DNA of 64,000 nucleotides from Cristatella mucedo. Lineage: Eukaryota; Bryozoa; Phylactolaemata; Cristatellidae. Where the stretch lies: NCBI GenBank assembly GCA_009760855.2, contig WPIO01000019.1, forward strand, positions 3,793,501-3,857,500, in the 5' to 3' direction. The translations under genes were made by a program, and so were the position numbers. Shown piece after piece: positions 5,066 to 62,185 of this stretch (the first letter of the stretch is position 1; each line of letters begins with the position of its first letter). The notes below the pieces were generated by a model. That model saw only the letters and a program-made list of their open reading frames with translations. It was not told the origin of the DNA and made no database searches.

Positions 5066-6690
5066 TTACAGATGTAATGTAATGTAATGTATCTCCGTCA
5101 GTAACTCCATGAAGTCATAAAGACCATGTGGGTGTTACGCAGGAGAGTTTTGTATAGCGCACTCACAGCCTAAGCGGCTTTCGGTACGCATTCGGTAGCC
5201 AACAGACTTCGTCTCACGCAACAAAGAGAAAGTGGGAGGCATAGCAGAGTCAGGAGAGCAGTTGAGGTAGTGAGTAGCATAGAAGTAGCAGTTCAGGACC
5301 GCTGAAAAAGATGTGCCACAGTCGGCAGTTGGAGAGTAGATGTCGTTGCGTAAGAATTGTGGAAGCGAGTTCCACAGTCTAGGACCTGCAGAGCTAAAGC
5401 TTCTGTCGCCAACTGTCTTTAAGCGGAGGAATGGGACAGCTAATTTATTGTCCACACAGGACCTGAGGGCGCGAACAGGCTGAAGCTTATGCAGCAGTTC
5501 AGCTAGGTATGAAGGAGCCAAGCCGTGGCGGGCCTTGTGGGTCAGCATAAGAACTTTGCTCTGTATCCTTCGCTCAACCGGCAACCATCCCAGCTCTTCC
5601 AGCAAAGGTGACACGTGCTCAAACCGCTGGGACTTGAAGACCAGCCTTGCAGCCATATTCATAGTCCGCTGTAGTGGCATAATGGCTTTCTTTGGTAGCC
5701 CAGCCAAAAGGGAATTACAATAATCAAGCCGAGACAGAACTAAAGAGCTAGTTAAACTTTTTACAAGCCACTGTGGGAGACAGCTTCTAATCTTGGATAG
5801 GGATCGGATGTGATGGCTAGCTGTAGAGGCAGTCTTCTGAAGGAAGCTTTTGAAATCGAGGCAGCTGTCGAACACGACACCTAGATTACGAGCACGTGGT
5901 GAAGGTCGCACAATAGCATCACCTATTAGAACAGCAAAGCCTTTTAGTCCAGCCACACGCTTAGGGTGTCCTATGAGAAGCAGTTCGGTTTTATCGTCAT
6001 TTAATTTCAGGAAGTTTTCCGTCATCCAGGATCGAATATCAGCAAGGCAAGCATTCAGTTTCTCAGTTGCTGCAGCAGATTCCGACGGTTTAAATGACAA
6101 ATACAACTGAGTATCGTCAGCATAGAAGTGATATCCTATTCCATGGGCCTTAATCACTTTTCCCAGAGGTTGCGTATAAATGGAGAACAGCAAGGGACCA
6201 AGTACAGACCCTTGAGGGACTCCACAGGTGACCCTTCTCATGTCTGAGACCTGACCCCCACACGACACGGAATGAACACGATCAGACAAGTATGATTTAA
6301 ACCACGCTAGTGCTTCGTCTGCCAGACCGATCGTTGTTCTCAGTCGTTCAAGCAGAACTTCGTGATCAATGGTGTCGAAGGCAGCAGACAGATCTAGCAG
6401 AGCTAAGGCAGTGACATTCCCGTCGTCGTTGCCACGTAGAATGTCATTTTTAACACGGAGGAGAGCAGTTTCAGTAGAGTGCTGCCTCTTGAACCCTGAT
6501 TGAAATGTTTCTGACATTCCATTATTTTCAATATGTTCAACAAGCTGCTTAGCAACAATTTTTTCAAGAATCTTTGATAAGAATGGAAGAAGGGAAACTG
6601 GACGATAGTTTGCTAGGACCTCTGTGTCTAATCCAGGCTTTTTAAGAATAGGTCTAACGATTGCCGATGCCCAGTTAAATTCGGTCTAAG
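5066..6690 (-). mobile_element. LINE-A copy A2 (CR1/L2-like non-LTR retrotransposon)
   Basis: It contains the reverse transcriptase frame, a 3' UTR of only about 60 bases and a terminal ACATT-type repeat at 5066-5092. Other copies in the window share the same 3' end, which fixes the family boundary. Confidence 0.85.
5135..6685 (-). CDS. LINE-A reverse transcriptase, 5'-truncated but open
   Basis: An uninterrupted frame of 516 codons, stopped upstream by TAG where homology also ends. It shows a non-LTR reverse transcriptase of the CR1/L2 type. Seen in order are RPILKKPGLD near the start, YRPVSLLPFLSKILEKIV, HSTETALL, motif A LLDLSAAFDTIDH (about 97-107), motif B GVPQGSVLGPLLF (about 155-167), catalytic YADD (about 188-191) and LKLNDDKTELL. 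The C-terminal region (KTVGDRSFSSAGPRLWNSLP) is typical of these elements. The endonuclease and ORF1 are missing through 5' truncation. No stop or frameshift is visible, so the copy is young. It copies its RNA at a nicked target in the nucleus. Confidence 0.88.
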   Translation of the reverse strand, partial: TEFNWASAIVRPILKKPGLDTEVLANYRPVSLLPFLSKILEKIVAKQLVEHIENNGMSETFQSGFKRQHSTETALLRVKNDILRGNDDGNVTALALLDLSAAFDTIDHEVLLERLRTTIGLADEALAWFKSYLSDRVHSVSCGGQVSDMRRVTCGVPQGSVLGPLLFSIYTQPLGKVIKAHGIGYHFYADDTQLYLSFKPSESAAATEKLNACLADIRSWMTENFLKLNDDKTELLLIGHPKRVAGLKGFAVLIGDAIVRPSPRARNLGVVFDSCLDFKSFLQKTASTASHHIRSLSKIRSCLPQWLVKSLTSSLVLSRLDYCNSLLAGLPKKAIMPLQRTMNMAARLVFKSQRFEHVSPLLEELGWLPVERRIQSKVLMLTHKARHGLAPSYLAELLHKLQPVRALRSCVDNKLAVPFLRLKTVGDRSFSSAGPRLWNSLPQFLRNDIYSPTADCGTSFSAVLNCYFYATHYLNCSPDSAMPPTFSLLRETKSVGYRMRTESRLGCECAIQNSPA

Positions 6691-12408: not shown

Positions 12409-13500
12409 GAACTTACTAGATAGATTTGAAGTTTCGAAAGTAAGGTTCAACTGGTCTTCAACAATTCGTTAGAGTGTCTTTGATAGGATAGATGTCTTTG
12501 ATAGCTGGATGGAGACTGGGAGGAAGTTGCTCAAGTTCTCTTGGTCTAATGTGGCTTTTTTGAATAGTGGCCTGACTATAGCCTTTTTGAAAGGTGCTGG
12601 GAATGACCTGAAGCTAATGACATATTTATGATGTTAGTTATGCATGGAAGCAGCAGATCTATGCATCTTAGAAGCAGAACAGTGGCAATAGGTCCAAAGG
12701 ACGAGTTTTCTTCTTTGGTGGTTGGGATATGAACTTCAGGACGAGGTTACAAGTGACCACGTTGAATGTAGACATTGAGATGCTGCACGAAATTAAGGGA
12801 CATCATTCCCGGAGAGATGCTGCCATCTTAGGGATGGACTCCCTGATCTTGTCTATCTTGTTGACAAGGAAGCTAGAGAAGCGATCAGCTTGATCATCGC
12901 AGGGATCATTAGGTAAGTAGCTAACCTGGGAGCGGTTGTGGAGATGGTTGTTCGTCGATATCAGCATTTTTGGATTGTGCACCTGTGATTCAACAATGCT
13001 TTTATAGAAGCTAGACTTGGCCTTTGCTAAGATCGATTGGTATGATCTGCTTTTGAACTCAAGCCTACTTTTTGTAAATTTTGATAGCTTCCATGGAGCT
13101 TGAAGTCGAGCAAATTCATTTATCAGTCCATTTTCTGCTTTTTAAGGGCAGATTATAAAAAAGTAGAGCAAATTGATCGCAGTTTCTCTGTCTTCATACT
13201 AAAATACGACGGGTTCTTAATTTCACTTAATCTCTTTTGAATCATTATATTTCTTTAGCAATCAGTATTTTTAGGCGCTTCTCATTCGTTCAGGTTATTT
13301 AATTGGTGAATTATATCTATGCAATTAACGTATAATTCGGTAAGGGCAATCATATTACGACCTCCTTCTGAATCAATGACATGCACAGCATGCTGATAAT
13401 AAAGCTGCATTTACATGATCTAATCTTTTTATTCCCATCTGTGGAAGTAAGATTATTGCAGCAATTTGACTCAAATAAGATAATCAAATAGCATCATGAT

Positions 13501-13640: not shown

Positions 13641-14079
13641 TGTTTTATCTGAGGAATTTGAGCAATGGAACAATTGGGATCGTATAAATTTGTCTTTACA
13701 CGAGTTATGAAAATATCTTTAATAAGAAAGATCATCATGAATAAACTGTATTAATCTACTTTTGGTGCACACACAAACCTGTTTAGGAATATTCCATTGA
13801 GCACAATTATGTGAGCTCACTTGACATTGGATAAGGCCCGTTCGTTATATTTAGCTCCCCTGAATGAATGTTAGGGTCACGGTATAGGCACGCCCTTGAT
13901 GACATGCTTAATGAGTTGGCACCTCGGACTAAGCGAAGTGTGCACCCTCGCCCAGATGTCTATGGTTTATCGCAGACATTAAAATAGCTAGATCTACTAC
14001 GCCGAATCTTGAGAAAGCATACAGAAGGTCAGGACTAACTGTCAGGCATACGAAGACTCCGGTAGATCACACCAATCGA

Positions 14080-14500
14080 TGCTAGCAAAGGCCATGTCTA
14101 GCTTCTGTAAAGATATTATTGAATCACAGGTACACAATCCAAAAATGTCTACCATCAACCATCTCCTTAACCGCTCACAGGTTAGCTCTTTACCTAATGA
14201 TCCTTGTGAGGATCTAACCGAGCGGTTCTCAACCTGTGGGTCGCGATCCCTTTGGGGGTCAAACGACCCTTTCACAGGGGTCCCCCAAGACCATCGGAAA
14301 ACACGCATTTTCACATTTTGCACACAATAATTTTATGTTTGGGGTCACCACAACATTAGAAATTGTATTAAAGGGTCGCGGCATTCGGAAGGTTGAGAAC
14401 CACTGATCTAACCGATCGCTTCTCTAGCTTCTTTGTCAAGAAGATTGACAAGATCCTTCATTCGTTAGCTCCAGCCAATCTGAACTACTCCTCCAGGCTA
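14080..14500 (+). mobile_element. LINE-B internal fragment split by a SPIN-like element
   Basis: Frames on either side (FCKDIIESQVHNPKMSTINH before, RFSSFFVKKIDKILHSL after) are parts of the LINE-B region upstream of the reverse transcriptase. They become continuous if 14220-14405 plus one target copy is removed. Confidence 0.65.
14220..14405. mobile_element. SPIN-like non-autonomous hAT transposon
   Basis: 186 bases. Inverted ends GAGCGGTTCTCAACCTGTGG and, from the other side, CAGTGGTTCTCAACCTTCCG. Flanked by perfect 8-bp duplications ATCTAACC at 14212-14219 and 14406-14413. Internal GGGTCGCGATCCCTTTGGGG, GACCATCGGAAAACAC and TTAAAGGGTCGCGGCATT match, from memory, the SPIN (Space Invaders) hAT family, with the middle of the usual element deleted. 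Confidence 0.88.
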
Positions 14501-14503
14501 GGC

Positions 14504-14650
14504 ATAATAATAATAATGCACTGATAAAGCGCCCTCAGAGAACTTAATCTCTCTCTAGTCGCTTTACATTTGCTGAAAGGGAAGTGCAATTGAATTGAGA
14601 GTAAAATCATGCTTGATAAACAAACAAAATGAATAACATGGTTAGGGGTG
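14504..14650 (-). mobile_element. LINE-B 3' tail inserted in LINE-B
   Basis: ATAATAATAATGCACTGATAA then hairpin and UTR, in opposite orientation to the fragments on both sides. Confidence 0.7.
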
Positions 14651-14870
14651 ATCGCGCCGCCCGCTTTCCTGACTCCAATTGCTCAGCTGTACAATCTCAA
14701 ATCCTTTGGAGATCGTGCCTTTAGTTCGTATGCTCCAAAAGCCTCGAACTCACTCCCGACTGAAGTCGCGACATCATCTGACTTGACGATATTTAGAAAG
14801 AAGCTTATAACACATCTGTCTATCGTGACATTTAGTGGGACCTTGTGATTTGTCCTTTGTGTTTGTATCC
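14651..14870 (+). mobile_element. LINE-B C-terminal coding and UTR fragment
   Basis: It encodes NLKSFGDRAFSSYAPKASNS followed by LPTEVATSSDLTIFRKKLIT, the LINE-B C terminus, then TGTGATTTGTCCTTTGTG of the UTR. Confidence 0.75.
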
Positions 14871-41255: not shown

Positions 41256-41362
41256 CCAAACTCGCTCATCGGTGCCAGCGTTTTGTCCGCTTGCTGCTAA
41301 AAGGAAAGAGCTTGTTAAACTTTTTAAAGTCTTCCAGCCGTACTCACGCCAGTCTGTGTGCG

Positions 41363-41882
<520 letters not shown>

Positions 41883-41889
41883 CGTGCGT

Positions 41890-60914: not shown

Positions 60915-62185
60915 ACTTCTTAGATTTCTTCGCCTGTCTTGTAAAGCTGTTTGGGAGCATCTCTGGTGGGTGTCCAGCAATAGTCAGCCATCATTGTAGT
61001 GGACCATTTTTCCTGGTGTCTTTGTTCTATTGCTGCCATATCTTTATGAAAACGTTCGCCACGTTCATCACTAACTATTCCACAGTTGTCAGGGAGGAAA
61101 TCCAAATAGGAATGAAGAAAGTTGATCTTTAGAGACACATGGCAGCCAAGTTTCTGATACTGCATCAGCATGCCCTCTACTAGTTCCTCGTAGTTTTCTG
61201 ATCTAAAATTCACGAGAAAGTTTGTAGAGACACTTGGTGAAAAGGAATTCCATGGTTGTTTCGCAAGCACCCTACAGCAAGTTGTTGAGCCGGTCATCTT
61301 AGGAGAGCTCTCTAATCTGAGGACCCACAAAACTCCCCTCTTTAATCATTGCTTCACTGAGTCGAGGGAATTTTTCATGCAGTTATCGGAAAGCTGGCGA
61401 AGTCCGGTCCACGGCTTCACGAAGTTCTTCATCAAACCTAGTTTGATGAGAAGGGTGGTAGCAGAATTTTGCGAGCATCGACCAGAGCTGGGTGTTGGAT
61501 ATTCTTCTCTCCGACTGCTACACTTTGTTTGTCCATTCCTTCCGCAATTAGTGTCATTCCCTTACTCGGCTATCACATCCACTAAGAATCACATGTATTT
61601 TGCATATCTCTGCTGCAGTCCCATAAAAAGGGTAACTACCTTCAAATCAGCACAGAGGTGCCAGCTGTACTAGTTATACTCAATAGAATTCAGTAGCTTC
61701 ATTAGGTTATCCTATGTAACTTTCATGTGGACAGCATACGCTACTAGGATAGATGAAGACGATTTCCATTGTGCATAAGCACAGCCTTGAGAATCAGGTT
61801 TCGAATAGTCTGCAAATAGTCTCTATTCTTGTGGGTCGTGAAAGATTTTTAAGGCTTTCATGAGGCCCTCAATGTCGGAACAGAATGCCAGGTTGCTTTC
61901 CTTTCTGAAGTGCCGAGCTGGTTTGGTCTAGCGGTTAAGGTGCTCGCCCCGACCAAGGTCTGACTGAGGTCGTGGGCTCGAGCCCCGAGGCACATGTGAA
62001 GCGCCTGAATAGAGATTAAGTTCTCTTGGGTGCTATATAAATGAATTATATTATTATATTAAGAAAGGCTCTAAGTGCTCGTGGAGCTTTTGATATAAAG
62101 TAATTGTGATATCCTCTTCAAGAAGACTCCGTTGCTGGAGTCTAGATCCCAGCAACTCTGCCTTACTCTTGCATAAGTCCAAATC
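60915..62185 (-). pseudogene. Decayed copy of a widespread transposon-like protein
   Basis: Read on the minus strand in several frames: GSRLQQRSLLEEDITITLYQ, NLAFCSDIEGLMKALKIFHD then PQE (stop) RLFADYSKPDS, SWHLCADLKVVTLFMGLQQR, LIKLGLMKNFVK, KFPRLSEAMIKEGSFVGPQI, GCHVSLKINFLHSYLDFLPD, then VSDERGERFHKDMAAIEQRH and MMADYCW. I know this pattern (DIEGL...DP.EWRLF, S.E.GERFH.D) from many multi-copy predicted proteins in arthropod, cnidarian and flatworm genomes. It is probably mobile-element derived. Stops, shifts and an inserted SINE-1 (61913-62060) show that it is dead. Confidence 0.7.
61913..62060 (+). mobile_element. SINE-1 inserted in the decayed transposon-like gene
   Basis: Full-length: GCTGGTTTGGTCTAGCGGTT, B box GGTCGTGGGCTCGAGCCCC, hairpin, ATTATATT end. 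Confidence 0.85.

Follow-up and report, generated by a model that had tools for sequence, protein, structure and literature searches.

The window, that is, the 64,000-nucleotide stretch of DNA analysed here, contains at positions 14220-14405 of the plus strand a 186-bp non-autonomous SPIN-like hAT element (MITE), which is very probably a miniature, internally deleted member of the SPIN group that was moved in trans, acquired horizontally by the host lineage, multiplied there and fell silent. The observations behind this reading are the ends and target duplications of the element, a paralogue with an empty target site, the copy number in the genome, long decayed copies with the same ends, and the close agreement of its left half with mouse DNA. 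In the history that we propose, a Buster-type transposase supplied in trans by full-length relatives elsewhere in the genome would have recognised both inverted ends and excised the short element, which would then have been inserted at a target centred on TA in an old LINE fragment, with duplication of 8 bp. The family itself would have entered the invertebrate lineage horizontally, risen to more than 1,000 copies, and then fallen silent and decayed. We infer both the mobilisation in trans and the absence of a remaining working transposase.

The element is bounded by two copies of an 8-bp target duplication (TSD), ATCTAACC, located at 14212-14219 and 14406-14413 of the plus strand, which show no mismatch, enclose exactly 186 bases and are centred on TA (ATC-TA-ACC), fitting nnnTAnnn. 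The left terminal inverted repeat occupies 14220-14235 on the plus strand and the right one 14390-14405 on the minus strand, where it reads CAGTGGTTCTCAACCT; the inverted repeats are 93% complementary over 15 nt. The first base of the window copy is G, that of the family being C (24 of 27 other copies compared), and over its whole length the copy differs from the genome consensus by 6.5% (K2P 6.8%). The 8-bp TSD and the terminal inverted repeats of about 15 bp agree with the definition of the hAT superfamily by these two features in an excerpt of PMC11008031. With up to three mismatches allowed, the 16-nt left end matches the window at two places, the element's own two ends, a count that is weak by itself (mean of shuffles 0.51, two or more in 12 of 100). 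The strand folds with a DNA energy of -33.3, the mean of shuffles being -21.0 (z -3.9; none of 200 shuffles equals it). A second copy was not found within the window by Blast, whose matches did not go beyond two short ones, of 19 and 13 bases. The window copy looks like a dead, non-autonomous fossil which shows no sign of function at its site and looks neutral.

The insertion interrupts an older LINE fragment, the left part of which lies at 14064-14219 and the right part at 14414-14455, both on the plus strand (joined-flank match 364-561). When the flanks are joined with a single 8-bp repeat, an uninterrupted LINE frame (LPNDPCEDLTDRFSSFFVKKIDKI) results. A paralogous LINE copy with an empty target site is located on the minus strand at 12845-13048; read from 13048 to 12845, it aligns across the junction with 83.8% identity over 204 alignment columns and has no insert, the sole gap (6 bases) lying away from the junction. 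Since this paralogue reads ATCAAGCT where the window copy has ATCTAACC, the unoccupied site has just one copy of the target. The perfect 8-bp target duplication, the length of 186 bases and the restoration of a LINE-B frame on removal of the insertion had all been claimed in an earlier, sequence-only reading of the window, and all three are borne out by these data. Among the other repeat sequences of the window are a 516-aa open frame for a LINE reverse transcriptase on the minus strand at 5135-6685 (Pfam RVT_1, E 6e-35), to which fragments elsewhere in the window are related, and a short repeat at 14504-14651 and about 20 further places (approximately 74-95% alike), which begins with AATAATAAT, contains a GCGC...CGCTTTA motif and is probably a common LINE 3' end or a SINE.

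The window's own assembly (572 Mb, 688 contigs) was searched with the element. Of 2,228 first-look candidates, the best 40 were scored and fetched, and all 40 matched, 39 of them with 87-92% identity and one being the window copy itself. A 30-base left-end pattern with at most three mismatches has 1,358 matches in the genome (674 forward and 684 reverse; none for the reversed-pattern control), and an exact 18-mer has 432 (control 0); the element is thus one of more than 1,000 related copies. The family consensus, derived from the best 40 of the 2,228 candidates with the window copy excluded, is 187 bp long. In 31 of the 40 best-scoring copies, here including the window copy, TSDs with at most two mismatches are present; the flanking 8-mers have no mismatch in 10 copies, one in 17, two in four, and three or more in nine, and six shifted-frame controls gave 0, 0, 0, 0, 0 and 1 of 40 at the same threshold. 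The centre of the TSD in those 31 copies is T at position 4 (28) and A at position 5 (29.5), the base counts being averages over the two flanks. This TA centre corresponds to nnnTAnnn, described as the TSD of TcBuster in an excerpt of PMC3499496, which places SPIN and Buster in one branch of the hAT superfamily. By description in the same excerpt, TcBuster shares with the present family the Buster affiliation and the 8-bp TSD nnnTAnnn, but differs in being an active beetle element. The element was not found in phage and plasmid sequences, and searches with two exact patterns each in a set of genome contigs and a set of viral contigs found none, as expected of such sets.

Transposase-bearing relatives were sought with a 63-residue C-terminal Buster motif entered by hand, which has at least 28 matches in the genome among the best 150 of 266 candidates scored. 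At four of the eight loci given (L072-L075), the copies matched by this query bear one or both ends of the short element. In wider stretches around four loci, L079, L080 and L081 are elements of 2,956 to 3,288 bp that begin with 93 bases and end with 77-81 bases of the short element, at 86-94% identity. L079 (3,110 bp) is flanked by a perfect TSD, ATCTAAAT, present twice, and L081 (3,288 bp) by a TSD with one mismatch; no TSD was seen at L080 (2,956 bp). L072, of intermediate length (1,123 bp), again has a perfect TSD, CACTAAAT, on both sides. The ends of these four elements comprise positions 1-91/93 and 107/111-187 of the short element, and remains of a Buster-type C-terminal part are found inside; at L082, neither element end was found in the wider stretch. 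The longest open piece in L079-L081 has 192 codons, so the frames of these three are broken; by our own reading, this piece encodes a zinc-finger-like part, and the C-terminal motif is in other pieces. Pfam gave no significant match for five transposase pieces (three without any match, one with two insignificant matches, and a fifth, from L077 of another lineage, with a sub-threshold hAT dimerisation match, E 0.0011), and a PDB search with one transposase piece gave no match. Because long decayed copies carry the ends of the short element, the short form looks, on sequence grounds, like an internal deletion derivative of the copies of approximately 3 kb. The suggestion that the element is an internally deleted form agrees with this; the proposed survey for an autonomous element turned up the long relatives, but the three examined are decayed and have broken frames.

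Other hAT transposases of this genome were also encountered. At L077 (G000:C154) lies another remnant of a Buster-type transposase, which shares 50% identity with the query motif; its 3-kb locus has no SPIN ends. PF05699 was tried as a route to the partner transposase and rejected: it has at least 138 matches among the best 150 of 766 candidates scored, and the loci fetched have no SPIN ends, neither ten strong ones within their 3.2 kb, which are members of another hAT family, nor the 20 weaker ones L051-L070. This other family, very young and Ac/ZBED1-like by our own reading, is seen at L029-L038 (G000) and at C110:3941640-3941876, about 84 kb past the window; it has dozens of equal-score PF05699 matches and open frames often of 635-642 aa, once of 1,947, and ten fetched copies are 98.9-99.9% identical over approximately 2 kb. 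This family is possibly still active.

The assignment to SPIN was approached by searching printed sequences with strings of the window copy and of the consensus and by comparing the mouse primers so found with the 187-bp consensus. Four primers from three mouse loci agree with it: primer 1 of the Ate1 3' arm at 18 of 19 bases (consensus positions 1-19, the first primer base being excluded as flank), primer 2 of the same arm at 18 of 20 (positions 56-75), both appearing in excerpts of PMC2767504 and PMC2837401, a Kcnq1ot1 primer (excerpt of PMC6221546) at 19 of 20 (positions 60-79) and an Scd1 primer (excerpt of PMC9482360) at 17 of 20 (positions 68-87). Summed, 72 of 79 bases match, all within positions 1-87, which belong to the element's left half. 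All but one of the four primers were found via family strings of 11 to 14 bases, and agreement inside these strings is built in; when these strings are set aside, the agreement is 33 of 40 bases (7/8, 18/20, 5/6 and 3/6), made up of 15 of 20 for the three string-found primers and 18 of 20 for the Ate1 primer outside all search strings. This second Ate1 primer, which is covered by no search string and belongs to the same locus as the first, is the strongest single item. The window copy itself has two, three and three mismatches to the two Ate1 primers and the Kcnq1ot1 primer; elsewhere in the window, the best sites have 5 to 7. Two other mouse sequences were set aside: a Dscaml1 mRNA primer (excerpt of PMC8028178) was judged a chance match (15/20 overall, 2/7 outside the string), and a construct in an excerpt of PMC11247941, apparently a more distant relative, was left out of the count.

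The sequence-only reading had described the termini and internal blocks as SPIN-like. We take the mouse primer sequences to be SPIN, the rodent repeat presumably being that named URR1, and the likeness of terminal and internal sequence applies via these primers to the left half. The name SPIN for them was inferred in part from an excerpt of PMC5857283, in which SPIN transfer is dated to 15-46 million years ago and the hosts include murine rodents, galago, opossum, tenrec and vespertilionid bats. Membership of the window element in SPIN is supported, at the level of sequence, by the Buster TSD rule, the mouse primer match of the left half and the decayed Buster-type relatives, and the likeness proposed earlier is in this respect supported. 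SPIN (SPACE INVADERS), known from tetrapods, Rhodnius and snails, shares with the element the 8-bp TA-centred TSD, the Buster family, terminal inverted repeats and, by way of the four mouse primers, the sequence of the left half; its occurrence in Rhodnius is mentioned in an excerpt of PMC11614815, and a Biomphalaria hAT with about 1,000 copies and significant identity to SPIN in one of PMC5440852.

Another Buster- or Charlie-type hAT family that merely has the common end motif CAGNGGTTCTCAACC would be the main competitor of SPIN. End motifs of this kind are common to several hAT families, and the mouse comparison is limited to the left half. Buster1 of planarian, strepsipteran, Rhodnius and Heliconius, as described in an excerpt of PMC4298943, likewise belongs to the Buster family, has TGGGTCGCG subterminal repeats and gives rise to internal-deletion MITEs. 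However, the Buster1 end CAGGGCTTCTTAAAC in Table 1 of that source and the end of the family consensus, CAGCGGTTCTCAACC, disagree at 5 of 15 bases, and the agreement with mouse extends to the internal positions 56-79, including bases where the window copy departs from the consensus. Such a different hAT family is therefore improbable, and we retain membership in SPIN.

The host can be characterised by its mitochondrial COX1 gene (C688:15615-16955), the frame of which is open when TGA is read as tryptophan (11 TGA). Several of its eight AGA/AGG codons stand at serine sites, ATA stands at methionine and AAA at lysine, a pattern which points to the invertebrate code 5. This code excludes vertebrates, tunicates, echinoderms, flatworms and cnidarians, so the host is an invertebrate and most likely a protostome. 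The size of the genome speaks against Biomphalaria, Rhodnius and Lymnaea as the host, as does code 5 in the case of planarians. Contaminants do occur in assemblies in general, and vertebrate DNA in an invertebrate assembly could in principle account for a SPIN-like element. The copies are, however, spread over many contigs, several of them of many megabases, the window copy is inside a LINE with a second LINE copy nearby, most examined copies have their own TSDs, and left ends number more than 1,000, all of which makes contamination scarcely credible.

For the resident family, divergence was estimated in two samples. The best 40 of the 2,228 candidates have a mean K2P to the consensus of 0.056 (0.049 outside CpG), a value biased by their selection on similarity to the window copy. 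A second sample comprised nine of the 432 places of the 18-mer from the top of the list, one from the search and eight chosen on the forward strand, the 18-mer requirement favouring well-kept left ends. Seven full-length short copies of this sample have K2P values to the consensus of 0.062-0.101 with a mean of 0.080, i.e., a divergence of approximately 6-10%. L089, the right end of which is lost in another repeat, and L090, in which only the left 90 bases can be aligned, were left out, the mean of 0.107 with both included being judged not meaningful. The long copies L079-L081 have pairwise K2P values of 0.163-0.175 (0.185-0.198 to L072), which would put each of the three about 0.085 from a common source. 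If neutral sites are assumed to change at a rate of 2 to 5 in a thousand million years, these distances correspond to roughly 16-40 million years, an interval that would coincide in part with the spread of SPIN among tetrapods; the host's own rate may differ.

The rival to horizontal transfer is an old family, handed down vertically from the last ancestor that vertebrates and protostomes share. The vertebrate/protostome split took place more than 500 million years ago, and the 6-10% by which the seven full-length copies differ from the consensus is too little for descent since then. A divergence as old as the host lineage splits, which would have spoken against the sequence-only reading, was thus not found. 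The comparison covers one host genome and would fit a continuous as well as a patchy distribution, but low divergence combined with a close mouse match is unlike neutral DNA of such an age, and vertical inheritance is very unlikely. Because of this low within-genome divergence and the close mouse match, the family probably reached the host lineage by transfer between distant animals. Horizontal transfer of SPIN is a known phenomenon, and the present case is probably another invertebrate host. We consider it rather likely that this is a protostome lineage new to SPIN, with decayed autonomous copies of its own and more than 1,000 related copies, and that another phylum or class was reached at about the time of the spread in tetrapods. 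Every additional invertebrate carrying SPIN adds to the record of how one DNA transposon moved between phyla, and with decayed full-length copies a transposase tree can test the direction and date of transfer, which short copies alone cannot.

Further features of the window lie outside the element and its LINE surroundings. Exon-like frames on the plus strand between 15000 and 38000, such as MARQSSAVLTAAARDDKLQNLMLEIEKLQERLSSARAQHSSE at about 32 kb and NMDEAINEMMKRIKNG at about 37.2 kb, may resemble the coiled-coil protein shootin-1. On the minus strand, a 141-aa frame at 60920-61345 has no Pfam match and contains the motif SDERGERFHKDMAAIEQRHQ..MMADYCWT, presumably that of a widespread transposon-associated protein. 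At 41359-41887, the 4-base unit TGCC is repeated 133 times with 98% matching and is open in several frames.
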